Positions 18,918 through 54,404 of a stretch of DNA of 64,000 nucleotides are shown one piece after another. The stretch's first letter is position 1. Every line of letters starts with the position of its first letter. Under the pieces are notes generated by a model. That model saw only the letters and a list, made by a program, of their open reading frames with translations, had not been told where the DNA came from and did not search any database. A program made the translations under genes and the position numbers. The DNA is taken from assembly GCA_039619475.1 (NCBI GenBank), contig CM077115.1:105870393-105934392 (forward strand), in the 5' to 3' direction. The DNA is from Icerya purchasi (Eukaryota > Arthropoda > Insecta > Hemiptera > Monophlebidae).

Positions 18918-19117
18918 TTATTGTTTTTGTCGATTACTAATAAACACACTATGCTGAACTGCGCAATGGGATTTATAATTTGACGGATCTGCGAACTTCC
19001 GATTGCAAATACTGCAGATGAACTTCGGTTCCGTTCCACATTCATACTTCAAATGACGCCGTAGACTCCGAGAATATCTGTATGATTTTCCACATTGATT
19101 AGGGCAACAAAAGTAAC
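18918..19117 (-). CDS. lola: lola alternative 3'-terminal zinc-finger exon
   Basis: Acceptor aaaatcag at 19118-19125; gt completes the split codon, and 65 residues follow before TAA. Finger 1 is C4, C8, H21, C26 (FCCPNQCGKSYRYS then RRHLKYEC), the linker is GTEPKF, and finger 2 is C34, C37, H50, H55 (CSICNRKFADPSNY then SHCAVQH). The tail is SVFISNRQKQ. About 340 bases of the intron just upstream (19118-19460) match the intron upstream of the exon at 25800-26011, and finger 1 of the two exons is nearly the same. Finger 2 matches the A-D-P type of the 33607 and 34366 exons instead. A frame runs on into the intron through the splice site; that part is conserved between the copies as DNA, and I do not regard it as coding. 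Confidence 0.92.
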
Positions 19118-19460
19118 CTGATTTTAACAATAAATTATAATGTAAGTAACAACTAAAGAATAAACAAAATCGCTTACGCATCACGATAATATCAGCGTAA
19201 TCATTGAAAAATTAATATCTAATAAATGTCGAAAAGTATTGAAAAAAATCATAATTACCGAAACCCCTTTTAATTAGTCTTCACCTTTTTAAAAAATAAT
19301 TTGTCCGATTTACTTAAATTATTTTACGTTTTTTAGCACATCTTCTGTTTTTAGTTTTTTAAACGGTAATTTTTTTTGTACAGTAATTCTTGACCAACTC
19401 TTATATACCTACGGTAGATTTAATCGAACTCATTTTTTGGATTTTTCAAAAACAGAGCTG
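19118..19460 (-). repeat. Duplicated intron segment, copy 1 (paired with 26012-26290)
   Basis: Sequence upstream of the 18918-19117 exon that aligns with 26012-26290, upstream of the 25800-26011 exon. The first about 60 bases are nearly identical (taataaatt ataatgtaagtaacaactaa agaata). Later shared words include ttttaatta near 19270/26150, and ggatttttc ... gagctg near 19440 against ggattttcc ... agctg near 26255. It is evidence that exon and intron were duplicated together. Confidence 0.7.
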
Positions 19461-21300
19461 AAATTTATAGGGTGAGAAACTATGTTACTACAGAAGCTTT
19501 TATAACTGCGATTTTACGGGTAAGGGTAGAGTACAATTTTTCGTTGTTTATTTTAAAATTACAGTCGTCTTCGGATGTTGTAATTTTTTCTCGTATTTTG
19601 GCTACACCGAACTTAACTTGTTTTTAATTTCCCGTCAGTTGCTATAGTCCAATAACAGTTGTCGTTTACTTATTGCTTCAAACTTGATTTTATTGGGATA
19701 AAATAGTCTAAATTTTCGAGATTACCGGGGTGACTAAGTACGTGAAACAATTATATTTATTTCGATTCATCTATTAAATATGCAGATACGATTTTAAAAT
19801 TTGAATTACGTAGTAAAATATAATATAAATTCACGTATAATAAAAGTAAAGACTCACAACACAATGAAGTATATACACATACACAATATTTGTCGAATAA
19901 AAATAAAATATTAAAAACCACGGTGCATGTACGCGCACAATATTAATTTTTAATTATAAGTTTTATAAACTAAATCTATTCCGTCTTTAACAAGTTCATA
20001 AGCGGGTTCGTGAAAGTTAAAAATATTGTTGAAGACATTTTCTTCTTAATCGAAAACAAAGCTAAAGCATTTAGCCGGTCTTCCGTCACCATGTTACACA
20101 AAAATGTTTTAATTCGTTTTAATCCCCAAGAACATCATTCAGATGCCACAGAGTATACTTCAGATAATAAGAAGCAATTTACAAGTTTCCAGAAAAAGGT
20201 TGCTGGTGAATTATTATCGTTGAAAAATTAGCACCATTTAAATTTCCGATGTCCATGATAAATTATGCCTCATTTTTTTAAATTATAAAACGATCTTTCA
20301 TTAAATTCTAATAAATAATTGTTGTTTGTTCAACAAGATCACAGGGAAACTATTGTTCGCAATGATTCAGTTGTGATTTAAGAAGTGAGTAGAAAATCAT
20401 ATCTGTTCTTCATTTGATACGCAATAACATCACAAATTCCTTTAGCTGCTGTTACTCAATTTACATAAATATCTTTTACCTTTTTCTTTTAGACGATTGA
20501 TTTTGTTTTCCACCGACCTGGAGTAAATCCATTCCTTTCCTGTCTTTCTCAATTAAACAAAAAAGTAATTTTACATTCTTCAATACGTAATCATTTGATA
20601 TTTCCTGACGCTGATTATTCTATCGGCTAGTGGCTTTTAACTAGTTTATAAATAACCCGATTGGTTTATAGATTAGTTTTCGTTTACTTATATTCAGTTT
20701 ATAATTAAAATTACTACATATATTGTGTCTTAAGACACTTAAATGTGAATATCAGTTGGCGCTATTTTAAATGTTCTTGGAAACAAACGAAAATTAAAAT
20801 TTTCTGAAATATTGATTGATGGTTTTTAAATCTAAGTAATGTTTAAGTTTTATTACCGACTTGCAAAAAGAAGAAGGTAATACCTTTATTAATGGTTTTT
20901 TTTTTTTTTTTTTTTTAATGTACTTGCATAACTAGTCGTAATGTGGACTGATTCCAATGACACTTTTTATTCATTCCAAAGTGTACCATTCAATGGTGGT
21001 ACCATGTGAGTATACCGTTGATTCTCAAATACTCAGTAGTTATCAAAAAAAATTGAAAAAACATGGGGTCCTTTTAGATAAATTTTTATTAATATAACGT
21101 ACGCGATTGATTTCGATCTGTAGCGCTAAGCCAATTTCTTCGGTAGATGAGAGCTCAAAAAAAAAAAAAATAAATAAAATAAAATAAAATAAAATGAAAT
21201 AAAATAAAATAAAATAAAAATTATCCATTTATCGTGGAAACGTAATTTGAAAAATTAAAAAAGTAAATAAACGAGCAGTTATCGATAATGAAGTTAAGTT
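19461..21300. other. Intronic stretch with one repeat end
   Basis: Near 20850-20885 the words accgacttgcaaaaagaaga and aggtaatacc resemble, in the opposite orientation, the end of the repeat at 28850-29210 (cctcctccttttttgaagtc ggtt). A T run lies at about 20898-20917, and an (AAAAT)n tract at about 21170-21220 precedes the LINE relic. No gene was recognised; the short frame near 20010-20231 matches nothing I know. Confidence 0.4.
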
Positions 21301-21309
21301 TATTCTGAG

Positions 21310-22870
21310 TCAATCCGTTCTGGTCTGTTTTCACGGACAGAGTCTACCGCGGCGTATGTTTTCCTTTGGAACGTGCGGTTTGTTTGCGAGCCTTTTGTCA
21401 GCAGAAACTGGCAATGTTTTCGACGTCTTAGATGTGACCACGTTGGTCGCCAGTGCAAAAGCGCAACAAGATGTGCCAGATGCGGGGGACCATATTTATC
21501 CGTAGCATGCGTATTTTGTGCAGAACATCACAAATCTACTGATCCTTCCTGTCCAGAGAAGAAGAGACAAATATACAATCGATGAATTAATGACCAATCA
21601 CAAGCTAGGTTTTCAAGAAGCGTCTCCAGAGATTCCTAAAATCTATCAGCAGAAACACACTTATGTTCAAATGCAATTAACAACAGATTTACTCTTCTAA
21701 CTGACTATAATGATTATCCTGCCTTAAACACTACCTTAACGGACCATGAAGAAATTAGTATTCCTACTTACAATCCTAAACCAATCTCCAAGATGAAAAC
21801 CGGTTTTATTGATGCAAAACAATTAGTATAAAACAATGATCGATCTCTTAAAAGATCCGTGTCTTTCTTTTCTCCTGATGTTGATTAGAATCAACTGATA
21901 TTGGAATCAGAGTTACGTCTAAAAAGAACAGTGTCATTTCTTTCATCGGATGAAGATAGAAGATGTTATAGTCAGAGCTCTAAGCATAAAAAAAAAAACA
22001 TTCATCCAGAAAAATTTAGATAACCCGGGCAAAAACGATCTGGCAGCTACAAACAAGCCGATAGTCAGTAAAATTAATAATCAAAATATAATTAGTATTC
22101 ATTTTACTAAGGATCTTTTTAAAATTAAGTAAAACCAACAATAAAATTAGTAAAACCAGTAAGCCGAATACACACAATAAAAAATAATCTTATTTCGTAG
22201 TAATTGAATTTTATTTGTTCATGTTATAAGTTTAACCGTTAACATCTTAGATTATGTATTTTCATTTTATTTTATTTTACAATGTGTTATTTATATTAAA
22301 CTCGTTCGTAACTTTTATGGCATTCATCCTGTTTCTTCTCTCTTTTTATCTTTCTTTTTCCATTGGTCCTTTTGATATTGCCTGTTCTTCCCTTTCCATT
22401 TATAATCCGTATGCTACAGTAGAATGCAAGAACCGTTGTGGCCAATAAATGTGACTTGAAACATTTTCTTAGTACCGATAGCTTTGATATAGAGATCTGT
22501 CATCGGAAACGTGGCTATCACATAAGAACCAATTCAATATTGCAAATTATAATTGCTACAGAAATTATAGAAGTGATAGGTTTTGTTAGGTTGGGAATTA
22601 GTCACCGGCCTATTCATATAAATTTGACTAATGAGAGTAACAGTACTATTTCTAATGCAGTTTGTATTAGAGCGCTACAATTGGTGAATTTTCCGGTACT
22701 TTCATATCTTATTATTCACCAAATCATTTCATTAACTCGCTTACCTTCTTAGAAGCCCTCGATAGTTTAGATAATAGACCTCTGTTACTTTAGGTGAAGA
22801 TTTTAATGCTCTGAACACATATTGAGGCTGTAGCAGGAATGATTTGTAATCTTTAACAAAATTCAGGTCC
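21310..22870 (+). mobile_element. Decayed Jockey-like LINE: ORF1 zinc knuckles and endonuclease start
   Basis: Plus strand. At 21410-21575 the frame reads CFRRLRCDHVGRQCKS, then RCARCGGPYLS and CPEKKRQI. This is the gag-like CCHC knuckle region of LINE ORF1, with the first knuckle's Gly-His pair altered to Asp-His. Further down, a shifted frame gives SETWLSHKNQFNIANYN and YRSDRF near 22490-22590, and EDFNAL near 22797-22815. These are the start of an ORF2 apurinic-like endonuclease (S-E-T-W-L, then Y-x-x-Y-R-x-D-R, then the G-D-F-N-A relic). Many stops and shifts. No reverse transcriptase follows, so it is 3'-truncated or deleted. Antisense to lola. Confidence 0.7.
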
Positions 22871-24318
22871 TGTAATAAAATAAAAATAATAAAATGGTGC
22901 GTAGAAATAGTATTATGACGTGTATAGGTATGTTCTTCATTTATAGAATGGGCCTTCTTTATGATTGTTCTTTACTTAAAAAAGAAAGTATTTTAAAAGA
23001 ACAACGAGATATAGCGGAAACTGTTGTTAGCTTAACTTTCCACTAATTTCTTTCTTATAATATCACTAACTAATCGCAATCATACTCTAGAGTCGACTGA
23101 GCGGTAAAATTCATATAACAGCAGCATAAGTTGTCAGTCAGATCGAGCGTTTAACTAACCAAGTACTTTTCTTCTTTGGCAGATTAGCTAGTGTGTTGTA
23201 CGATGTACATTTTTTACTGTAAGCTGTGACTACGCTTCCTGCTATTTCATTATTGCGAAATAATGTTCATACACTTGTGTTAATTTTTTTTCTATCATAG
23301 TGTTGATACATACCTGTGAAAATTACAAAAATATAAAAGAAACTAACCCATTCAGTGAATAAGAGTTTATAAATACGTTTACCGAAGTATAGTAGAAAAA
23401 TCTGTTGTGACAAACGAAAAGCACTACAAGCATTACACAGATGGTAGTACAGTGGAACAACGATTATTAGACAGACAGTTTAGAAAAGTTTCTTAATGTG
23501 GCTGTAGTTTTCTGTTCAATAATATATTCGAATTTTAATAAAAAATTCGAATATATTTCAATTTATAGTTCTTAAATTTGAGTTACTTAATATAATCTTT
23601 TTTACTTATTAATTTACTTTTATTTTTAAATTCATTTTACATTATGCTTTTTATGTAAATTTAAATATCTGTTTTCTATTAAATTAACTTGATTTTTTGA
23701 AATTTAAAAAAAAAAGTGGTTTTTTAATTTACTTTTTTTTTGTATAGTCACACGCATACAAGACTTATTTTTCTGGAGTGCCGGAAAAAAATCAAAATTC
23801 GTCACTGGTACACTTATATAAAGAATAATTAACGTAATCGAAACATTGATCTGAAATAGATAGACAGGTGCAATTTTGAATGAAGAATAAGGAGAAAATA
23901 ATTCCGCTCGGTGAAAAAATGTAGAGAAGTTACACGTAAAAAGTAAAAGAAAGTTTACTATGGGAGATTATATTAGAAGAATTTGTATTTAAAATGGAAG
24001 TTTCATTAAGGAAAGACCGCCAAATTTGAAAACAAGAAATCTGTACTTTAGGTATGAACGATAAAAAATAAATGGGGTGAATATTGAATTTTACAAGGAT
24101 AACCGAAGTAAGATATAATGGCCGTGTGCGTTGAATCTAATTTAGAGAAGATTTGCTGTATACGAGAAAAAATAGAAATCTAGCTTGGAAAATATAAGTA
24201 ATTAGTACACAGTATGATTAGGTTTTGAGGATCGCCGACATACTTTGAGTGTAAAAGAGATGGAAGAATTAGTTACAACTGTCATTTTTGGAAGAAAAAA
24301 AAATTTTCATTATACAAC
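22870..24318. other. Intronic stretch, nothing recognised
   Basis: AT-rich sequence with no motif that I can assign. Confidence 0.4.
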
Positions 24319-25226
24319 GGTTGGTCCAAAAATGTTGGCCACACCCTTCACATAGCGCGGAAAACGTCAGCGAAAGCTAAATTATATACACATTTGTAGC
24401 GTAAAATGTTTTACATTAATTTTGAAAATTTCAGCTCGATAGCTTCAAATGGATACTCGCATGCAGACTATCCGTGTGCAAAGTCGTATATCCGCCTAGA
24501 GTGGGATGGGAAATTCCCCATAGACTCGCGGTAACACTGTTGTCAATAAAAGAACAATATGATTAAACAGTAGACACTGAGCTGACGGATCAAAAAAAGA
24601 AAAAAAAAACCGTTTAAACGTTTTTTACGTGTGCACATGTATTGTATTGACGAAGTGATGCTTACGTCAGATTTATAATTCCGGTGTGTTTTCGTGAGAA
24701 TGGGCACCACGACAAAGCCGCATACGTCTAAACTTACGACCGAATTATTACGAAAACATAATATTAAGGTGTTGACGCATCTTCTGTGTACAGTCCTGAC
24801 ATCACAACTTGTGATTTTTGGCCCTTTCCAATACTCAAACAAACCTTACGTGGCGCAAGCAGTCTGCGCTTGTAAAAGCTTCCTTAAACGTGTAGTTTAG
24901 GCTTGAGAAAAATTTAAACGTGAAATGGGCAGAAAACAAATGTATGAAACATAAGAGACGGGATTTTAAGAAAGATATAAACGATAACTGAAATGCATTA
25001 TATATTAAAATTGCGTTTTTTTTTTTTTTTAACACGAAATCCCGTAGGCAGAAGTCGATATGACTTTGCGCGGATGGTCCGTACAGGCGTCTATATGAAG
25101 CCATCGAGCTGAAATATTTAGAATTAATGTAAAACATTCTACTCTACAGGCGTATGTAATTCGGTTTTCACCGACTTACTTTTTACATGCGACGCGAGGG
25201 GTGTGGATAAAATTTTTGGACTTACC
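24319..25226 (+). mobile_element. Mariner-like transposon relic with long inverted ends
   Basis: Starts ggttggtccaaaaatgttgg ccacaccc and ends with its inverted form (ggggtgtgg ... ttggacttacc). The inverted similarity runs for roughly 180 bases at each end (24319-24505 against about 25045-25226). Between them, plus-strand frames at 24698-24890 give H-H-D-K-A near 24703, then HTSKLTTELLRKHNIKVLTH and, shifted, YSPDITTCDF. This is the C-terminal part of a mariner transposase (H-H-D-N-A, then Y-S-P-D-L-x-x-C-D, where the Ds are catalytic). The N-terminal half is missing, and frames are broken in at least two places. The nominal TA target sites at the ends are degraded. Confidence 0.7.
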
Positions 25227-25799
25227 ATTGTAATCGAAAAAAATCCGAGAACTGATAGATAGCTAATATATAACTGGCGTAGATTTATTATACAACCTGC
25301 ACATTCGTAAGGCAACTTTTATAGCGGAAAAACGTCACACAATATGAAAATGTCATAAAATAAGAACATAAGCGAATTTCTTATTATCTATAATGCAGGA
25401 AGTAAGCAGAGGAGTAAAATTTAATTTAACGGAAGATACCGGTCATCGAAGAATGAATAGAGAAATAAACAGATTATTAAAGTTAGCTTATTAGACGACA
25501 ACTTTAAACATTAGCTTAAAATTGCGATTTGTGTAGTGGAATACACGTGAAAATACATCGGTTAACTGACAATTAAATCGAAAGCTATGAAATCGTTATC
25601 TGATTACTGCAACATCGAGCAATTGTGTAGGTAATGTTAAATAAAAAATGAATCAGTTTTATTTCAGCGAAAATTACACACAACGTACCATTTGTCTAAT
25701 GTAAAGAAAATCATAATACCGATGATGCAAATAAATGTATTATATCAAAAATGAACAATGAGAATATTGATAAAGCTATTTAACTTTAATATTAAAAAA

Positions 25800-26011
25800 T
25801 CAATATTTTGCTCTTCTCCCGCGCAGATAACTAATAAATACTCCATGCTGGACAGCGCAATGTTTTTTATAACTCGATTGATCAAAAAACCTTCTTTTAC
25901 ACGTGTTACACGAGAATTTTGGTTCTACTCCACACTCGTATGTCATATGACGCCATAGATTCCGAGAATGTCTGTATGATTTTCCGCATTGATTAGAGCA
26001 ACAAAAGTAAC
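25800..26011 (-). CDS. lola: lola alternative 3'-terminal zinc-finger exon, mosaic
   Basis: Acceptor gaaatcag at 26012-26019; 69 residues after the split Gly, ending in TGA. Finger 1: C4, C8, H21, C26 (FCCSNQCGKSYRHS then WRHMTYEC). Finger 2: C34, C37, H50, H55 (CNTCKRRFFDQSSYKKHCAV). The basic tail ends YLRGRRAKY. Two changes stand out in finger 1: Ser replaces the usual Pro after the first Cys, and Trp replaces the usual Arg or Gln before R-H. The zinc ligands are intact. Finger 1 and the upstream intron match the 18918 exon, while finger 2 and about 400 bases of 3' flank match the 27951 exon, so this is a recombinant of its two neighbours. ATTAAA at 25785-25790 could serve as poly(A) signal. 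Confidence 0.92.
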
Positions 26012-26290
26012 CTGATTTCAACAATAAATTATAATGTAAGTAACAACTAAAGAATAAATAAAATCGCTTACATAATCGTTGAAAAATCAATATCCAAAGT
26101 TCTGAAATGTAATAAAAATATCGAGAAAAACCGCAATTGCTGAAGCCTTTTAATTAACTTTTATCTTGTTCGGTAAAAACAGTCTCATTCGACTTACACT
26201 CTATCGCGACAATTAAATATCTACAGCAAATTTAACAAATCCCTTCCTCGGATTTTCCAACAAAGCTGTAATTCAATTTTAAAATCCGAA
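26012..26290 (-). repeat. Duplicated intron segment, copy 2 (paired with 19118-19460)
   Basis: The upstream intron of the 25800-26011 exon, alignable with 19118-19460 and best in the first about 60 bases from the acceptor. The two then diverge through indels. Confidence 0.7.
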
Positions 26291-26369
26291 TAATCTTAAT
26301 AAAACTATTTTTATTCCGCTTTCGGCCGCTTTTGTTGGGGCTCCTAAACGCATGAGTAATCGTGAGAAT

Positions 26370-26562
26370 ACAGAGGCTGAAGCCTAACTTAGTCGCTCCT
26401 AAGTTTACACAGCCTGAAATAATTGGGTACCGGAGAAATCGAAAGGGGCCGAGAGAAACGAACTGGTCCCCCTACTGTCATTAGCGCCTTTGAGCTTAGT
26501 ACACTATGAACCTTAATTTCACAATCCCCGATGCCCCCTCAAGGTTATAGGACTTACTTTAC
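26370..26562 (+). mobile_element. SINE-like element, copy B
   Basis: The body gtcgctcctaagtttacaca gcctgaaataattgggtacc ggagaaatc ... cgagagaaacgaactgg matches, in reverse, 53622-53795, where a tRNA-like head is present. Here the head is missing or unrecognisable. The element ends in a (TA)n tract at 26563-26590. Confidence 0.55.
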
Positions 26563-26564
26563 TT

Positions 26565-26596
<32 letters not shown>

Positions 26597-26895
26597 GAGG
26601 TATATACCCACACACAGAAACACAAACAAACTCAATTCTTCAGACTTCGCTATCGGAACACCCTCTGAATCCCTGTATGAGAATCTTCTATATAATTGGT
26701 ATAGAAAAGTCAGTTTCAAACCCCCTCTTTTTTTTACATTGTAATAAAAAAACTTTAGAAGCGATAAATTTAATTGACGAGGCATGTCGGATTCGCTCAG
26801 TTATCTTCCTTTTTTGGTCGGTTTCTTCCCGTTTTTTCATCTTTCAATATTACTCTTCTATCTGCAGCTGCTCATTCCAAACTTTGCTTTAACTC

Positions 26896-27228
26896 TTATA
26901 TCCCCCTATTACCTAACCCGGATTCCTTTTTCTTGTCTATCCAGCTTTCCTTTCCTCGCTCCTCTGGTTTCTTGACTTTTCTTCTATACGTCGCTCTAAT
27001 CTCTCTACAATTTGCCGTCTGTATTTTTGGCACAGTTTGCTCACTTCTTCGCTTTTCCATGTTTCTCCTTGCCGTCCCCTTATTGTTCATTGCACCTCTC
27101 CAACATTCAATTAATTCGCGACCCCGATCACATAATGTTCGACTATTCGTCACTTTCCACTGCACAAACTTCTTTTTACTCCTCTCTTTTTCAAATGGTG
27201 TTTCCGCTCCAAACAATGCTTCGTTCAT
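26896..27228 (-). CDS. Uncharacterised lysine/arginine-rich open frame (110 codons)
   Basis: A 110-residue frame that is very basic and rich in E, K and R (KERSKKKFVQWK, ARRNMEKRR, YRRKVKKPEERGKE). The plus strand has a longer overlapping frame (26774-27268, 164 residues, rich in F, L and S), which is probably its shadow. I do not recognise a domain. It lies between the 27951 and 25800 exons, in the interval expected to have been duplicated between exons, but no second copy was seen. It could be a piece of a mobile-element gag-like protein or chance in purine-rich DNA. Low confidence that it is a gene. Confidence 0.18.
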   Translation of the reverse strand: MNEALFGAETPFEKERSKKKFVQWKVTNSRTLCDRGRELIECWRGAMNNKGTARRNMEKRRSEQTVPKIQTANCREIRATYRRKVKKPEERGKESWIDKKKESGLGNRGI

Positions 27229-27471
27229 TCTTTCCTCTCCTTCACCATGTGTTATCCAAACTCTTTAACCTTTTTTTGTCAGCTATCTCTGATCAAGTAA
27301 AGATTTGAGTCGACTCCCCCTCTTTTTCTCTGTTCTTGGGCACATGTTCATGTTGATGAGCCCATATAAAAAAAAAAAAAAAAAAAAAAGACAAATTATG
27401 TAGAAATTTCTATTAGAACTTACATTACCCACTTCATTAACATAAATTCTACATCGTGTAACAAACATTTC

Positions 27472-27518
<47 letters not shown>
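27472..27518. repeat. (ATT)n microsatellite
   Basis: About 15 uninterrupted att units, roughly 430 bases downstream (minus-strand sense) of the 27951-28156 exon. Confidence 0.95.
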
Positions 27519-27519
<1 letters not shown>

Positions 27520-27950
27520 TACATATTGCCGGTCCAACAAGTGGACGGTACAGATGCGATGCCGTACCAGACCCAAACATTTCTTAATACATCCAACGTA
27601 AAAAGTATAGATGACATAGAAGTAAAACTGAAATTAACAGAATGTACTGATCATCAATGAATGAATAGAAAAATGAATAAATTAAAGATAGTATATTAAG
27701 CGATAAATTAAAAAATTAGCTTAAAATTGTTATTTGAATACATATCAAAAAACATGACAGTTAACTGACAACTGAACAATTGTAGGAAATATTGTACAAA
27801 AAAAGTAAATCAATCTAGCATATTTTAACGAAAGTTAAACACGCACTTTTCCAATATAATGAAACTAATAATACAAATACAATGTAAAAAATGAACAATA
27901 AAAACACGCATAAAGCGCTATTCAACTTTAACACTAAACGATTTTAATGT

Positions 27951-28156
27951 TTAGACGTTTCTTGCACGTTGATTACCAATAAATATTCCATGCTGGATGG
28001 CGCAATGCTTTTTATAACTTGATCGATCGAAAAACCTTCTGTTACAAGTGGTACAAACAAACTTAGGTTCTACTCCACATTCGTACCTCAAGTGACGCTG
28101 TAGACTACCATAATGTTTGTATGATTTCCCGCATTGTTTTGGACAACAAAAGGCAC
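27951..28156 (-). CDS. lola: lola alternative 3'-terminal zinc-finger exon
   Basis: Its frame has no ATG-initiated run, so it is easy to miss. Read from the acceptor tacgcag at 28157-28163, it gives the split Gly plus 67 residues to TAA: AFCCPKQCGKSYKHYGS, then QRHLRYEC, linker GVEPKF, then CTTCNRRFFDRSSYKKHC. Ligands are C4, C8, H21, C26 and C34, C37, H50, H55. The tail FIGNQRARNV is mildly basic. Finger 1 resembles the exon at 53203 (KHYxSLQRH). Finger 2 and the 3' flank resemble the mosaic exon 2 kb further along the gene. A long fold-back repeat lies about 220 bases upstream in the intron. Confidence 0.92.
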
Positions 28157-28380
28157 CTGCGTATACAATACAAACAGGTTACTACATCATCATAAAGATA
28201 CGCTTACTTTTAAATAAAATTTACAAAAACTATGCGCATAAATTATGTGTAATACTATTTTGCATTATAACAAAATTAAAACAAATACTTGAAATCTGAT
28301 TATTTATTCATACATACAAAATAGAAAACAAATAATTCATATTATATGGTTAACCATATTTAAAATTAGAAGAAAAAAAT

Positions 28381-28785
28381 GCTTTTTTACAAAAAATAAA
28401 TACCGACTTCAAGGTTTATTATAAAAATTTAAAAATGCACTAAAAAGTAAAAAATAATTACTCCCGATAAAATATATATATCAGAGTGATATAACTTAAG
28501 GTGATATCGTAATTCTTATACAACATTAATTTTTTGGAGTTGGAATTAAATTCATGTTAGGAACAATTTAATCAACATTTAATGCAGTTTTTAATTATTC
28601 TTTTAATATGAATTTGATGCCAACTCCAAAAAATTAATGTTGTATAAGAATTACCATATCACCACTAAGTGTTATATCACTCTGATATATATATTTTATC
28701 GGGAGTAATTATTTTTTACTTTTTAGTGCATTTTTAAATTTTTATAATAAACCTTGAAGTCGGTATTTATTTTTTGTAAAAAAGC
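28381..28785. repeat. Long fold-back (inverted) repeat, about 165-base arms
   Basis: The left arm (28381-28543, starting gcttttttacaaaaaataaa) and the right arm (28620-28785, ending tttttgtaaaaaagc) are close to perfect complements around a loop of about 76 bases. The few differences include a 3-base indel and single changes near 28495-28510 against 28652-28672. A transcript of either strand would form a long hairpin. Part of the right arm (actttttagtgcattttt) recurs at 28798-28815. It has no coding content and is most likely a foldback MITE. It sits in the lola intron just upstream of the 27951-28156 exon. Confidence 0.85.
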
Positions 28786-28849
28786 TTTTTTTTTTTTACT
28801 TTTTAGTGCATTTTTATTCAATTAAATTAAAACATTTATTTCCACGGTA

Positions 28850-33606: not shown

Positions 33607-33806
33607 TCATTTTCGTCGTCGAACACTGACAAAAATTCCATGCTGGACCGCACAATGTTTTTTATAATTCGTTGGATCGGCGAATTTCTTATTACAAGTG
33701 GAGCAAACGAACTTGGGCGCTATTCCACATTCATATAATAAATGACGTCGAACACCCTGAACATACCTGTACGATCTTCCGCACTGCTTCGGACAAATAA
33801 AACTAC
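33607..33806 (-). CDS. lola: lola alternative 3'-terminal zinc-finger exon, mosaic
   Basis: Not visible as an ATG-started frame. The acceptor is tgcgcag at 33807-33813; the split Gly plus 65 residues run to TGA: SFICPKQCGRSYRYVQG, then RRHLLYEC, linker GIAPKF (Ala in place of Glu), then CSTCNKKFADPTNYKKHC, tail FVSVRRRK. Ligands C4, C8, H21, C26, C34, C37, H50 and H55 are intact. Finger 1 has Val where a Leu (helix position 4) is normal. Upstream intron and finger 1 follow the 31761 exon; finger 2, tail and 3' flank follow the 34366 exon. An (ATT)n tract begins only about 20 bases from the acceptor. Confidence 0.92.
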
Positions 33807-33824
33807 CTGCGCATTTATAAATAA

Positions 33825-34365: not shown

Positions 34366-34568
34366 TCATTTTCGTTCTCGTCGACCGCTAATAAAAACTC
34401 CATGTTGGACTGCACAATGTTTTCTATAATTCGTCGGATCAGCGAACTTTTTATTACAATTGGAGCAGATAAACTTAGGTTCTATTCCGCATTCATAGCG
34501 TAAATGACGCCGTAGATTCGAAATGTGCCTATACGACCTTCCACATTGATTCGGACAACAAAAGCGAC
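34366..34568 (-). CDS. lola: lola alternative 3'-terminal zinc-finger exon
   Basis: Acceptor gatatcag at 34569-34576; the split Gly plus 66 residues run to TGA. Finger 1: C4, C8, H21, C26 (FCCPNQCGRSYRHIS then RRHLRYEC). Linker GIEPKF. Finger 2: C34, C37, H50, H55 (CSNCNKKFADPTNYRKHC). The tail FISGRRERK is strongly basic. It is the closest to a consensus member of the local family. It lies only 560 bases from the next exon, the tightest spacing in the array, and looks like the donor of finger 2 in that exon. Confidence 0.93.
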
Positions 34569-37500
34569 CTGATATCAACAGTAATTACGTCATTAGTACA
34601 TTTAAGTAACGCATATGAGATGACAGATAATAACTGAGAGATCGAATAAATTAAGTTGTAGTTTTGTACTAAGAGATAGAGATAATAGAAAGGGGAGAAT
34701 TTTAGTAGGTTGGCATTTCAGTAATCCTGCCCTTACAATATCCAAGCAAATATTATGCTTACTGTGTAGTATTAGGAAAAAAATTATAATTCGTTAATTG
34801 ACTGTACACTACAGGGGCATAATCTACTAATGTTAATGCCGTTCAGAAAATTCTAAAAGAATCCATTTCAAAAAAAAAATATTTACACACTAGAGATAAT
34901 ATAAAAAATCATATATATATTTTTTTTTTTTTTACGTATATATTACGATGCCCTTACAGAAGCTGTAATGGAGGTGAAATGACGATAAATAAATACTGTA
35001 ACACAAAACCGTAATTTGTAATCAACTCTTCCTATAAAAATCATAGGAAACTATTTTTTTAGGGGTCCAGGAGGTGTTTCCATGGCAAGGTCTAAAAGAT
35101 CGAGTTTTATAATAAATATATTCATGACTATGTGATTTTTATGTCGAGGATAATATGAAAAACTATGTATCGTTTTTGTATCAATTATATGTAACGCTTA
35201 AAAATTACACAGTCAATTAAAACCAACTCTTCTTGTATATACATACATATATATATATATATATGTATATATGTCAGTGGCGAATCCTGATTTTGTTCCT
35301 GGTACTTCTTTGAAACAAACAAACGGTGAATAGAATTCACATACATTGTATGACAAACACAAATTAAGAAAACGTTTTTTTTTTTTGACTTTTTAATTTT
35401 AAAAAATATAAAATTCGCTTTAAAGAAATTGATAAATTAACAAATCCATTACAAATAATAAATCATTTTAAATTATTTTATGTAAAATCCATTAAAAAAA
35501 AAAGACCAAACCAAAAATTTAATGTTTCAAAACTCTCAAATGTTTTTCAATTGTTTAACGTAAAATTATATTATACTAGGGAAAATAAAATGTAATCAGA
35601 AAAGACAAAAAAAAAAAAAAAAACCGCCGAAAATTGCGGTAGACCTGTCTATTGCGCAGGCAAATTACAAACGGCTGCGTAAACCTCAAAGCCAGCCGTG
35701 TGTCGTCACAGTAACATTCTACAAATTTTTTGTTATGTCAGGTCGCGCTCAGTAGAACAAGTGCCAAAAATCATACTAGTCTGGTTCTCTTTATCGCGAC
35801 TTGATTACGCTGCAAATAGTAACTAATCGTGTCGCAGTGTAAATCCCTACCATTAAGTCTGGCAGATGGAATCTGGCCATACATAGAATGCCATTACCCG
35901 AATCAAAAAAAAAAAAAAAAAAAAAGCAGTGTACAATGCGCTAGGATTTCTTCTTCTTATAGAAAATTAGATAGGATACACGATGTCGTATATAAATATA
36001 ATAATACATGAGTTCTAAAACATGTTTATTTGAAACAAATTAATTTAATAATTTTCAGATTATCGGCAGCGATGTTGATTGGTTAGGTTTTTTTGTTTGT
36101 TCGTTATTTAGTAATTTCACATAGAATAATTCGAAATTATTTAAAATTTTAAATTGTTTATTATTTAATAATCATTTAATAGACCGGCTAAATTAAAATT
36201 TCAAAGCAACAGGTTTTTAGTTAGGCCTTTTTTTTTTAGTATTTTAAGAAATGCGCGTGTTTATTATAAAATAAATCGCTAATCACAATTATCATATAAC
36301 GGTATTTTAGAAATCGCATTCTATTTAAACATGACATATGGGGATTCAACAGGCTTTTCTGGATAATGACAAGAAGTACAATGTGCTGGTCGCTTTGTCA
36401 AAGTACAGACGTACTATACTTTGTCAGTTAAACACTCGATTTGATTGGCTGTTTACATCATTGTAATGTGTGTGTGCATTTTTCAATACGTTATCAGTGA
36501 CTTGCCGAATACCAGAGAAGTACTCACAGCGCCTGTCGACTGCGTCAGAGTAGCTGGCACATCATCAAATCAGAATTCAACTATTACTCAACACCGATGG
36601 AACGACCAGCACCTTACACATTCAAGTGTACCTTTTGTCTTCGCATGCCCGAACGGCGGCTTTGCAGATTTCTGGTAGATATATACTTAATTTTTATTCG
36701 TGTAAATAAGCATTTCACTGTAAAGGATTTAGTGACTTGTTTTACTAGTCCCACATTCTTTTTTAAAATACAATTTTTTGCAAAATCTTAGAACTCTGCA
36801 GGCCACTAAAAATTTAATTTATCAAAGAATCGTCTGTAGAAGAAAAAAGTGCTTAAAATTGGCTAGTAACGTGGGTTTTGAGCAATAAAGAACTATATCA
36901 AAGCTGGCAAAACTGGCTGTCAATTGAAGGATAAAAGTAATCACATATTTCAGTAGGAGCAGGACATGTATCAAGGTTGAAAAATGAGAGGCTAAAAATA
37001 ACGAAAAATTGCATAATTTATCAAACTAGAAAAAGGGAAGACAAAAAATCAAGTTAGAAAGGTGTTATTTTCAGAGGACACAGATATTTTAAGTGTAGCT
37101 CAAGACCGACTCGAATGAGCTAGTGACCCCGTTTTCAGCGATCTAGGTATTAGATTTAATTTAATTCATGTTTTATATTTGAACTCTATAATAATTTTAG
37201 AAATAGATCTCGATGGCTTGATGAATAAATAAAGAAATCCTACACATTTACTTCACACAGAAGAGAAGCCTGGCCAGCCAGTCAGGTAGAAATAGAAAAA
37301 GGAAAAAACTTACAGAGAACGTCATCAATAGTTTTTGGAACGTACATCGCGAATCAGATAGAAAGATTATTATGGTCTTAAAAAGAGTTCTTAGATTGGT
37401 CTCATGTGAAAGTACTGAATAACGACTATTTTTTTTGTCCTTATGCAATAGCTGCTGGGAATAAATAGAAAATTAAGAACAAATGACGATGTAAAGTTTA

Positions 37501-41918: not shown

Positions 41919-43174
41919 CATTGCTAAAAGAAGTCTGAACTCATCATATTATAGTATCAGATATAATATTATTTTTATTATAATGTAATAAAATAAGGTT
42001 TAGAGGTTGTGAAATCATACTTTAATCTTTTATCTCAGGTTTTAAAAAATTTCACATAAAGTCACAAAAATTTTTAAACGCATAAAGATATTCATAGGAA
42101 TGCTGCATGAAATTACAAATTTAATATCTTCGTTTTGAATTTAGTATTATGTAAATGTAAATTATAGTTGTCTTTAATTTAACGTACGGAATCTCCAGCG
42201 TATAAAACATCAAGCTTAACTCGGCTTGTTTTTATTATTATTATTATTTTTTTTAAAATATAAAATAATAATAATATTATTTTATATATTATCTTCTGGG
42301 CGCGCCAAAATGCACTATCTTAAAATAAATCCAAGTTATCCGCACATTTAATTTACAACGATAGTAAACACACACACAAATCTACGAACACACCTCCGTT
42401 TATATTTTAAGCGAAGAAAAATAAAATTTTTTGCCTAATAAGTACACAATTTTTAATTTAAAATATAGGGTCCAGCATAAGTCACATAACGACAACCGAA
42501 AAAACGATATTTAATTTACAGAATAGAACAAATTTTAGAATAAATGTTGAAAAAATGTCTGCGGCGCTGCTTAATGTACATTCTATCGTGCTTTAGGTCC
42601 CAACCTCACTCAACAGATTGATCAGAGACAGTTTTATCATATCAAACAACTTACAATGTTTTTGAGTGCGTACTAATATCATCCTGGGTGTTATCTGGTT
42701 GGCGTGACTTACACCCAACCGTGCATTATCCGACGTATGATACATACCATGTAACTATTATTAAATAACACAGCGTGAAGTAAAGCACGGTTTTTCCGGC
42801 GAATAATTTAAATTAAAATAAAAAAATCCGATTCACAATCAAATTTTATTGAGCTCATAATCTACATTTATGTATAAATTGGTTAAATTTTTTTTATACA
42901 GAATGCTCAATTTATGATTTTTTTTGTCGATATTATATCGATATTATTGTTCACCGATACATAATTCGAACGTAGTAGCCTTTTTTAATAAAGTAATTTT
43001 AAACGCGTTTTAGCCACTAATTGCCGAATAAGTTTAGTTATATTACAAAATTTTAAAACAAGTACATACTCAGGAGGAAAATAGTAGATATTCACCACAG
43101 AAAAACTGGAATTTATAAAAAGTAATCTATAATCGTACTAAAAAAATGTTCATAAAGATAATTCGCTATACGTA
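41500..43174. other. Intronic stretch with a (TA)n tract
   Basis: (TA)n at about 41860-41911 is among the longest simple repeats here. The sequence at 42230-42290 is a run of att and aat repeats with local self-complementarity. Nothing coding was recognised. Confidence 0.45.
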
Positions 43175-46100
43175 GGTTGGTCGAAAAATTTTGACCACAC
43201 CCTTCGCATTCCGCGGGAAAACAAGTCAGCGAATCGAATTCCGTCTACAAAATTTCATACTTAAAAAAATGCAATTTTTAGTACAAAATTTTTATGTACA
43301 CTTTAGTCATCGTTTTCATTTCTCTTTTTCACAAAATACCCCGTCCCTTATGTTTTATACATATATTGTTCCACTATTTATTTCACCTTGAAAGTTTTCC
43401 CAAACTCAACCTAAAGAACGCGTTTAAGGAAGTCCAAGCGCGGACTGCTTCCCGATCCGTCTCGAACTGTACACCACGTGTAAGGCTTGTTCGAGTATCG
43501 GAAAGAGACAAGACTGTACAAAGTGTGTAAACAGCTCAATATTATGTTATCGTAATAAGTTTCTCTAGTTTTTGTATTATGTTGTGCTATTGCGCTCTCA
43601 ATTGCCGAAGAATCTCTTGGTAAATACACTTCACTTATTTAACTTTATGTCGCTAACGGCTCGTTATTAACTCTTACCGCATCAATCGTTACCTCTTAGC
43701 ATCTTGACTAATCGACTTCAATGTGGGCATTCTACCGCAGTCGGTTTATCACAACCAGCTCTTTGTACGATGCTTCCTCCACACCACTCCAACATCAACA
43801 GCATGCAGCACACACCAACCTACGCCGCCAAAGCATCTCGTTAAATCACACCGATGGCCGATTTTATTTACCTCACCGACGAATAAGATATCATCTTTAA
43901 TCATGTCTACAAGCAATTAATGCACTCCTTAATAATCCTCGGCTAATTCTAGCAGTGTTAGAGGCAACCGGCGTATAATCATATATCTAGCTAACAAAGA
44001 AGCGGTCAACTCGCTCTTCAAACACGCAACCGGCTAAAACCCATCTCAACTAAAATAGTTTTTTCCACCGTCCACCAACTATCCCTAATAACGTGCTCGA
44101 CTACTATGTTCGGAATAGGCTAAAACTCGAATTAGCCTCTACGATCTCATTACTCCGTGTCAGTCTCCGTTTCATGAATTATTTTTGCATTGGCCGCAAG
44201 CAAATAATATACATTCAAAAAAGAATGGAACACTTAAATCTCTAACCTTCTTTTTTGCTCCAATACAACAGCAAGTTACAAAAAGCTTCTCTATTTCAAT
44301 AAACGACTTCACGTGATTTAACTGTCAATCCTGCAACCACAAAGCAGACCATTACGCACCGAGCACACCGCATTCTATAACTAGTTCAATTAAAGCGGAA
44401 TTTTCATTCCTGATAACAACAGCTGAAATTATTGAAACACCATTTAACTTTACCACAGCGACCAACATTGTTCTCATTAAATGATTCGTTGCTAAAGAAC
44501 CCACCATCGTACCTACACAGACGCCTAAGATACAAAGGTCAGAAACCACATCAAGGAACTCTTTTGTCATCAATTCCATCTGTTGTTGTGAAGTCACGTT
44601 CCTCTGAATCAATCTATTCTATCTGCGCAGCCGAGCAACATAGTAAACCAACTGTGACCGCCAATTATCATCGTAGGAGACTATAATGCGCATAACTCCA
44701 CATGGAGGAGTTCGCATTATAACAAGTTTTCCTGACGTTCAATACAAGAAATTTAACTTAGCAGTAAGTACGGTTCAGCTGTCAGGACGACTGGTCTCCT
44801 ACTATCACTCAGATCTTACGGGAAGGGATCACACATCAGTCATCATCACTGGTATTGACGGCAAACAACCTGCATTCAGCATGTCATCTACATGCAAATA
44901 CTACAAGATAAACTGAGAGAAATTTTTGGACCAATACAGCTCTCAAATTGAACGCGTCTCCGGCATAGCCGCACTAACCCAGAAGAAGATATAAACTTCC
45001 TCGCCCGATGTCTCATCAACACAACCTTAGAGCATGCTATCAGATGGCATTCTACCGCGATTCTCAAATAAGGAAGTTTACTCCTCGGTGGAATAAAGAC
45101 TGCTCAGCTGCCCTCGCCAACTATAGAAGAACTTTGCACAATCTTTAAGAGCCAATCCAACAACAGAAGCATTCATCATAAGAAAGCTAAAAGGGAGTTC
45201 TGGAGAAAATTCACACCTTAAATTACACAGACCACCCCACGTCATTTGGAAGAAAATTCATGCAATGGAAAATAAAAGATCACATTTCCTTCCGCAGACA
45301 ATTCAATTTAATAGTCTCTGTCTTATAAACTCGTCAGAGATCTCGGAAGCTTTTGTTAGCCAACCTCCCGTTATAAGTAACCTTCTCTCTTCAAACCATG
45401 AAGATACTGAAGATTATAACATAGATATTGTTGTTAACAAAGTGAGGGAAGCAATTTTGAAATTGTGCGCCAATAGTCCTAGTCTGGATGGGGCACATAT
45501 TTCAATGGTCAGAAATGCGCCTTCCGAATTAATTCAACACATAATCGAGCTCTTCAATAATTTATGAAAATCTGGCGGTAAGCAGTTATTTTCTCAAACC
45601 AATCAAACCAATACACTGGCCGGAGAACTATATCACTTACATCTGTTTTATATAAAGTTACGGAAAGAGCAGTAAACATTAGATTACAACGGATATTTCA
45701 CAGACGAAAATCACTCCGTCAGGAGCAAGCAGGGTTCCAGACACGACGTTCAATAGAACAACTATAGCGTTTCTTTCGGACGCAATCCTTGAATTGAATT
45801 CCTTTTGAACCAATAATATACACTCACAATATTTTTTGACTTAAACAATGCCTTCAACACAATATGCAAAAACCAAATCACTTTTCAACTTGAAACAATA
45901 TCATTTATCAATCGATTTCTCAACAATAGAAGTTTTTTTGGTACACTTTGGATCCGTTAACTCCAGTCGTTACTAATTGTGCAACAGAGTTTTTCATAAG
46001 GGTCTGTCATAAGCCATACATTAGTCAACATATAGCACATTTAGTATAGTCAATGAAATTTCATCTCCAGTACAGTCAGTTTTATTTGCAGATCACCCCG

Positions 46101-46417
46101 TCATATTTGTTCTGTGCAATACCGCCTCTCTCAGAGAACAGGTTTTACAAGAAACCATTAACCACTTAGTGGTTTGGGTATATAAACATGGCCTCGAATA
46201 TTCAGAAACAAAAACTAAGGCCATGCATTTTTACAAGCGGAGGAAATACGATTTTGTGTGGATGGCCTCTGTGCGAGCGTCCATATGAAAATATCGAGAT
46301 GAAACTTTCAGAACTAATGTAAAACATTCCCGGCTATAAGCGTGTGTAAATTAGTTTTTGCTGACTTATTTTTTTCTTCATGATGCGAGCGGTGTAGCCA
46401 ATATTTTCGGACCAACC
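43175..46417 (-). mobile_element. Mariner-like transposon, split by a LINE insertion
   Basis: The ends are ggttggtcgaaaaattttga ccacaccc at 43175 and its inverse (ggtgtagccaatattttcgg accaacc) at 46417, each with a flanking TA (43173-43174 and 46418-46419). Read on the minus strand, 46417-46250 matches the left end of the copy at 24319, and 43560-43175 matches that copy's transposase end and right terminus (LHTLYSLVSFRYSNKPYTW in one frame). The intervening 43700-46250 is an oppositely oriented LINE. The right terminus here lacks about 100 bases present in the 24319 copy. It ends 53 bases from the stop codon of the 46470-46681 exon. Confidence 0.7.
43700..46250 (+). mobile_element. Jockey-like LINE pseudocopy nested in a mariner element
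   Basis: The most complete LINE in the window, read on the plus strand with many shifts. ORF1 has a zinc-knuckle trace near 44320 (FNCQSCNHKADHYAP). The endonuclease has IIIVGDYNAHNSTWRSS near 44665-44715. The region leading into the reverse transcriptase has SPSLDGAHISMV near 45475, the RT has QEQAGFQTRRSIEQ near 45722-45765, and the box is FADHPVIF near 46090, where the second catalytic Asp of FADD is now His. It continues through VVWVYKHGLEYSETKTKAMH near 46165-46230 and stops abruptly at the mariner sequence. It is non-functional on these grounds. Confidence 0.75.
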
Positions 46418-46469
46418 TATGTATTTACAAAAAATGAAAATAAACCGAAAAAATCAATAAGGAAGAAAA

Positions 46470-53202: not shown

Positions 53203-53408
53203 TCAGTCCTGTTTCCCCTTCCGGTTGCTAACAAAATGTCCATGTTGAGTTGCGCAATGGCTTCTATAATTTGATTGATCGAAAAACTTCTTGTTACAAG
53301 TAAAGCAGTTGAACTTGGGTTCACGTCCACATTCATACTTTAAATGACGCTGAAGACTACTGTAATGTTTATACGATCTTCCACACTGCTTAGGGCAACT
53401 AAAATCAC
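53203..53408 (-). CDS. lola: lola alternative 3'-terminal zinc-finger exon
   Basis: Acceptor gatatcag at 53409-53416; the split Gly plus 67 residues run to TGA. Finger 1: C4, C8, H21, C26 (FSCPKQCGRSYKHYSS then QRHLKYEC). Linker GREPKF, with Arg in the usually hydrophobic second position. Finger 2: C34, C37, H50, H55 (CFTCNKKFFDQSNYRSHCAT). Tail HFVSNRKGKQD. The KHYxSLQRH helix of finger 1 is shared with the distant exon at 27951. The acceptor context (tgatatcag) is shared with the exon at 34366. A (CA)n(TA)n microsatellite begins about 70 bases after the stop codon. Confidence 0.93.
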
Positions 53409-54404
53409 CTGATATCACAAGTAAACGGTATTATTATGTAGAACGCACCGATTAAGTACTGAGCGTAAAAAAATGCTCATAAATAGCAAAACCCATGTCG
53501 ATATATAAAAGACTAAAGAAGTAAAGTAAGTACCATATATATCCTTGATAAAGTATGACGGGCATTGTAAAGTTAATCTTTTCATAATGGTACTTGAGGA
53601 TCTAATGGATCTGATGAGAATACTACGGCCAGTTTATTTCTCTCGGGCTCCCCGTGACTTTCCCAGATTTCTCGGTACCCAATTACTTCAGGCTGCGAAA
53701 ACCTGGGAGCGACCTGGATCCGGAACGAGACAAGTCTCGATAACCTATGACACCTCTGATTTGGTAGCCAAGCTTAACCGCTAGGCTAACTAAATAAAGA
53801 AATTACGTTGTGTGAAAAAGAAAAATCGACACGAAAGGAAAATGTTCGTTGAAAATGGAACTAGTTCGGAAAAACGGTCATTTGTCATTTAGACAGTATG
53901 ATGAAATAATTGAACGAAACGCGCTAATGATTTTAATAGTTTCATACTTATTAAAATGTTTCGTAAAATACAGAAATCGCGGATTTACTAATATCTGAAA
54001 CAGTAACAATAACACAAATATATAATAAATCGCAATAAAACGTTTACAAAAGCGATGCAGCTTATAGAAAAATACGGTATGAAAAATTTATGAACTAATC
54101 AGTCTATATATGTCATATCGGAGAGCCGTTCTCATGAATGCGGGAAATTTTTCACTGGACGTTTGATTTATTCGGAAAGGGCTATGGAATAGACAACGAT
54201 TACATCCCCCACCGGCTCCAATAATGAAGATAGATAAAAATTAACGTTATTAAAAGTGCGAACGAACTAAACGTAATAGTACATTAATTAAAATAAGCAT
54301 TGGTGTTTACAGAAAAGATAAATTAAAAACGCATTCCGATAATCGAAAATGAAAAACAATTCATTAAATTTACACTAAGACCGTTAATTTAAATCGTTTT
54401 GAAA
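53409..54404. other. Intron between exons 54405 and 53203
   Basis: About 1 kb holding the SINE-like element at 53622-53795. The rest is unrecognised. Confidence 0.45.
53622..53795 (-). mobile_element. SINE-like element with tRNA-like head, copy A
   Basis: Read on the minus strand it begins gttagcctagcggttaagc, which fits a pol III A box. About 50 bases on, the stretch ctcgttccggatccag is a possible degraded B box. The body gtcgctcccaggttttcgca gcctgaagtaattgggtacc is shared with 26370-26562. In this orientation it is sense to lola. Confidence 0.55.

Follow-up and report, generated by a model that had tools for sequence, protein, structure and literature searches.

Exon H (25800-26011, minus strand) is a two-finger alternative 3' exon in a lola-like array, and comparison with its neighbors strongly supports a mosaic makeup, with 5' sequence like that of B and 3' sequence like that of A. 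Exon A (27951-28156, minus strand) is the next exon upstream of H in the gene and is the source or sister of its second finger and 3' flank. Exon B (18918-19117, minus strand) is the next exon downstream and is the source or sister of its first finger and 5' intron. The founding event of H was probably a crossing-over rather than a conversion, with a probability of about 0.7. The window, which is the whole stretch of DNA analyzed, is 64,000 nucleotides long, and all positions refer to it.

Motif, frame, and tblastn scans of the window found 12 lola-like two-finger exons, all on the minus strand and each ending in a stop codon of its own. They lie at approximately 60.5, 54.5, 53.3, 46.6, 34.5, 33.7, 31.9, 28.1, 26.0, 19.1, 12.2, and 4.2 kb. 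Each exon consists of a first finger of the form C-x3-C...H-x4-C (C2HC-like), a short linker, a second finger, and the stop codon; the linker is GVEPKF-like in most of the 12. A phase-1 AG/GT acceptor motif precedes the first finger in 10 of the 12 exons scanned, including H, A, and B, and is absent at the 60.5 and 12.2 kb exons. Given this common acceptor phase, each such exon could follow the same upstream exon, and such splicing is predicted. The zf-C2H2 family was the best Pfam match for all six exons searched and exceeded the curated cut-off in five; the 12.2 kb exon scored 24.7 against a cut-off of 25.2. The name lola-like, for an array of lola-type alternative 3' zinc-finger exons, is suggested by this layout and by a likeness to lola exon motifs. 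Common 5' exons with a TTK-type BTB domain would be expected 5' of the 60.5 kb exon, probably beyond the window. A sequence search of the PDB matched 119 chains, and the 60 listed were generic C2H2 proteins, with no lola chain among them. In a prokaryote genome collection, 17 stretches fitted the pattern and none was confirmed. Eight fitted it in viral contigs, and one was confirmed over 15 residues; this sole confirmed viral match lacks a lola-like finger pair and appears by eye to be a phage HNH frame.

The exon coordinates of an earlier note on this DNA were found to be right. The phase-1 AG/GT starts of H, A, and B lie at 26011, 28156, and 19117, and their stop codons end at 25800, 27951, and 18918, respectively. 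The gene order A-H-B, with H in the middle, was likewise borne out, the gene lying on the minus strand. H retains an open frame, the zinc ligand residues of both fingers, and a stop codon at 25800-25802. No other exon or relic was found between A, H, and B by motif and tblastn scans; among the tblastn matches listed for the 12 exons against the two spacers (one per interval), the best had an E value of 0.18. The frame of H is also open upstream of the acceptor (26013-26153), as is that of B (19119-19211), through the tract of low H/B divergence treated below. An upstream acceptor is thus still possible by frame alone.

It is the flanks that settle the mosaic structure of H. With simple-repeat and AT-rich matches set aside, pairwise BLAST gave a single H/A match (25407-26014), ending at the acceptor, and a single H/B match (25826-26156), reaching into the intron; the A/B match was restricted to the exon. 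In the 5' direction, H 26015-26156 aligned with B 19121-19276 by BLAST. Extension of the flank homology was assessed by local alignment against dinucleotide shuffles. A weaker 5' extension paired H 26159-26322 with B 19349-19514 at a score reached by 0 of 500 shuffles, and approximately 72 bases of the B intron (19277-19348) are missing from H. The paralogous 5' intron of B spans 19118-19514 (minus strand), and the older B-like 5' intron of H (26072-26322, minus strand) corresponds to parts of ~19190-19514. For the far part of the 5' intron, beyond the gap near 26157, H and B were compared by local alignment, which tends to inflate identity. The earlier estimate of about 280 bases of shared 5' intron was about right, since about 310 bases of H match B. 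The claimed likeness of the 3' flanks also held: H 25407-25799 matched A 27615-27950 (both minus strand) better than any of 500 shuffles, and 86 of 321 sites differ in the global alignment.

The remaining flank pairs gave no homology above shuffles. For the 5' flanks, 449 of 500 shuffles were as good as the A/B alignment and 372 of 500 as good as the H/A alignment (399 of 500 for the far part of H/A alone). The 5' flank of A is comparable over only about 200 bases, after which a palindromic repeat begins. This repeat (28361-28805) is MITE-like, with 135-nt arms that are 96% complementary and additional inner 60-nt arms; it interrupts the 5' flank approximately 200 bases upstream of the A acceptor. 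For the 3' flanks, the shuffles as good as the alignment numbered 257 of 500 for H/B and 251 of 500 for A/B, and 352 of 500 for H/A past the end of the 3' match. Flank scores were then computed, with 60 shuffles per pair, for the 55 pairs that 11 of the exons form (all but the one at 4.2 kb). H/B was the sole strong pair in the 5' flank (z 22.2; next, 4.4), and A/H was the sole strong pair in the 3' flank (z 24.1; next, 2.8). Absent flank similarity had been named as an outcome that would speak against the mosaic; both flanks of H match.

The three-way alignment and breakpoint test proposed in the earlier note was run. The best single breakpoint, at which B-like gives way to A-like sequence, lies between H 25947 and 25938 (minus strand; LLR 50), that is, between the third (His) and fourth (Cys) ligands of finger 1. 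With flanks included, the sites before the switch were 71 B-like and 9 A-like, and those after it 36 and 120 (0 of 20,000 permutations). The corresponding B-like:A-like ratios were 12:2 then 8:25 in the exon only (32 of 20,000 permutations) and 10:2 then 2:19 in the fingers only (5 of 20,000 permutations). H is not uniformly like either neighbor, since its partner changes from B to A. The switch had been placed near the linker between the fingers. It is close by, but slightly ahead of the linker, after His18 and before Tyr21 of finger 1; consequently, the finger-1 recognition helix belongs to the B-like part, and the last finger-1 ligand, the linker, and finger 2 belong to the A-like part. The proposed match of finger 1 to B holds for nucleotides (89%) and for the intron but not for protein: B finger 1 is 74% identical to that of H and equally 74% to that of each of two other exons.

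Coding sequence alone is suggestive of the mosaic. In an array-wide scan, H with A and B as parents ranked first of 495 triplets from 11 exons (55 of 200,000 permutations). The triplet p value of 2.8e-4 becomes 0.14 when multiplied by 495, so that the coding sequence by itself would be inconspicuous in a blind scan. By the AU test, a topology joining H with A was not rejected for the 67-nt 5' coding part (p = 0.147), nor was one joining H with B for the 110-nt 3' coding part (p = 0.086).

The following origin is proposed. Exon A of one chromatid would have misaligned with exon B of its partner. Within or next to the exon, an old unequal (non-allelic) crossing-over would have followed. Its product, A - [B 5' / A 3'] - B, would have one exon-plus-intron unit duplicated in tandem. 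The new exon H would have received the acceptor, intron, and finger 1 of B and the finger 2, stop region, and 3' flank of A. Later, slightly more probably than not, gene conversion of H and B, in either direction, renewed the acceptor region and finger 1 over a short tract (~26071-25947). Spliced to the common 5' exons, H would add an isoform whose finger pair is new. An old crossing-over is supported by asymmetric noncoding homology: H matches B only on the 5' side and A only on the 3' side, and no other of the 55 pairs is strong. The single unequal crossing-over of the earlier note fits the mosaic, the middle place of H, and the polarity; the second layer of divergence may need another event.

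One observation runs against crossing-over: the duplicated A-B spacer that the model requires is visible at its ends only. The A-H and H-B spacers are alike at both ends, in the A/H 3' flanks and the H/B 5' introns, respectively. Their middles (26290-27614 and 19460-25406) gave only simple-sequence or trivial matches, with no collinear homology. Both spacers contain repeats, and loss of the spacer middle by insertion and decay would be plausible. The element at 24312-25244, which we take to be mariner-like, has inverted ends of approximately 180 bases that are 73% alike, and it has kin at 46239-46435 and in pieces within 43167-43558. The repeat at 26392-26564 is related to 53519-53713. The H-B spacer also contains a retroelement-like zinc-knuckle reading frame at 21415-21531 (CARCGGPYLSVACVFCAEHH), which has no Pfam match; the best E value for three spacer reading frames searched against Pfam was 0.05.

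Divergence between H and B falls into three parts: 16 of 78 sites differ in 26156-26072, 7 of 125 in 26071-25947, and 40 of 118 in 25946-25829. The additional H/B change point raised the log-likelihood by 5.2, which was equaled in 22 of 300 shuffles and is borderline. By three-way alignment counts, the acceptor-side intron (26015-26073) differs at 3 of 59 sites, against 16 of 76 in the adjoining stretch (p = 0.011) and 73 of 288 in the H/A 3' flank (p = 0.0002). Acceptor-side intron and finger-1 silent sites taken together differ at 4 of 73 sites, compared with 64 of 322 in the H/A flank (p = 0.0019). The finger-1 silent sites of H and B differ at 1 of 14, compared with ~11 of 21 in finger 2 of H and A (p = 0.0097). 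The older parts are of similar divergence: 15 of 76 sites differ in the H/B intron 26074-26156 and 64 of 322 in the locally aligned H/A 3' flank (Fisher p = 1.0). When the adjacent and far H/B intron are pooled, the intron is more diverged (61 of 227 sites) than the H/A flank by local alignment (64 of 322; p = 0.063). The low-divergence tract has a 19-base indel at its upstream edge.

The lower H/B divergence near the acceptor than in the farther intron would call for either a younger exchange between H and B or local constraint. On top of the proposed old crossing-over, we lean slightly towards a younger, short H/B gene conversion over 26071-25947. The candidate conversion tract (25947-26071, minus strand) comprises the last ~60 intron bases and finger 1 up to its His. 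If this younger conversion is right, the visible switch may be a conversion edge, and the original crossover would lie within ~26072-25938.

The strongest alternative shares the crossing-over and differs in the second layer: there would have been no later conversion, and purifying selection on splice or regulatory signals would have kept divergence low near the acceptor. We regard this as possible but less probable than the conversion. The tract does adjoin the acceptor, and support for a second change point is borderline (equaled in 22 of 300 shuffles). A common folding element is conceivable, although the predicted RNA fold of the H acceptor tract was no better than shuffles (z -0.37). Against constraint, the low divergence continues into the silent sites of finger 1 (1 of 14), and the acceptor region of A is unlike that of H (34 of 59 sites differ). 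In addition, amino-acid changes in finger 1 match silent ones in frequency (dN 0.081, dS 0.075), which is unexpected under constraint on the exon.

A different founding event, a plain tandem duplication of A or B after which the other neighbor replaced one half and its flank by ectopic conversion, is unlikely. The low-divergence tract already hints at H/B conversion, and with the outer homology lost, either parent may have supplied the unit. This history takes two events where one is sufficient. Judged by the match coordinates, the converted stretch would measure no less than ~375 bases if B were the donor, or ~530 if A were, and would be about as old as the duplication. Moreover, the DNA beside H shows neither a 5' flank of A type nor a 3' flank of B type (372 and 257 of 500 shuffles as good, respectively), with the caveat that A is comparable on its 5' side over only ~200 bases.

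Still less probable is that H is the older exon, and that A (in its 3' half) and B (in its 5' half) are partial derivatives that took their other halves from elsewhere in the array. The three copies cannot be rooted without outgroups. Finger 1 of A resembles that of the 53.3 kb exon (89% in protein), and finger 2 of B resembles that of the 34.5 kb exon (78% in protein). At least two partial duplications would be needed. Nucleotide identity is 75% for A and the 53.3 kb exon and 73% for B and the 34.5 kb exon. The best flank score of the former pair is weak (z 3.6, 5'), and the latter is outside the top pairs listed. These weak flanks and low nucleotide identities point to an old family resemblance. 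Finally, chance, convergence of finger sequences, or an alignment artefact, which the weak coding halves (AU tests) might suggest, was rejected as very improbable on the flank controls, since the noncoding flanks on opposite sides of H score z 22 and 24, and none of the other pairs among the 55 comes near.

The mosaic structure has consequences for the predicted protein. Helix positions -1, 2, 3, and 6 of finger 2 read DSSK in H and A and DSNS in B. The same positions of finger 1 read HRNR in H, YRSR in B, and HGSR in A; the helix of H therefore agrees with B at two of the four positions and with A at two as well. Of the five H/B differences in the exon as far as His18, four alter the protein (dN 0.081, dS 0.075), and three changes fall in the finger-1 recognition helix, at positions -1, 3, and 5. 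These numbers are too few for a claim of positive selection. In DNA-contact terms, finger 1 of H as predicted is not simply that of B. H may be expressed, and its DNA target may have changed. A more speculative extension, which we hold to be less likely than not, is that exons of the lola array swap whole fingers repeatedly: an old crossover and a younger finger-1 conversion would be followed by change of the contact residues at no less than the silent rate. If true, the splice array would be a library that assembles new DNA-binding specificities through finger swaps between isoforms.

Two further pairs of exons were observed in the array. The neighboring exons 33607-33807 and 34366-34569 are 82% alike in nucleotides and 83% in amino acids in finger 2, and 74% in nucleotides in finger 1, with no clear flank homology (3' z 2.4). 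From these identities, they are possibly another old finger-level mosaic. Exons 53203-53409 and 27951-28156 share a finger 1 that is 89% alike in protein and 75% in DNA, an old likeness conserved in protein.

The process is a known one, of which H is a new and well-supported instance; what is unusual is the swapping of fingers and the possible second exchange. In PRDM9 and the KRAB-ZNF genes, unequal recombination reshuffles zinc fingers. There, it takes place within the tandem fingers of one exon, whereas here it would be between separate alternative exons. Lee et al. 2010 reportedly proposed that the variable exons of Dscam were expanded by staggered homologous recombination, with the exon and its adjacent intron as the unit. 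The array described here would be like that of Dscam in that tandem alternative exons are multiplied through unequal recombination of homologous neighbors. It differs in that the gene is lola-like, two zinc fingers are encoded per exon, the switch point is inside one of them, and there may have been a younger conversion. According to PMC12431208, the number of Dscam1 variable exons can grow and shrink by such recombination.

In Drosophila lola, 17 of 20 isoforms carry different C-terminal C2H2 fingers (PMC11426971), and the layout of its variable 3' exons is described in PMC1947980 and PMC11426971. Like Drosophila lola, the present array is a row of alternative 3' exons, 12 here, and in each of them a second finger comes after a C2HC-like one; the comparison covers the terminal exons. 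Among the titles listed in searches of the open-access literature, none was on recombination among lola exons. If the history proposed for H is right, the number of lola isoforms and their DNA-binding repertoire can grow by finger-swapping recombination, beyond copying and point mutation. The possible H/B conversion would also contrast with Dscam arrays 4 and 6, for which PMC3236188 reports no evidence for gene conversion between duplicated exons.
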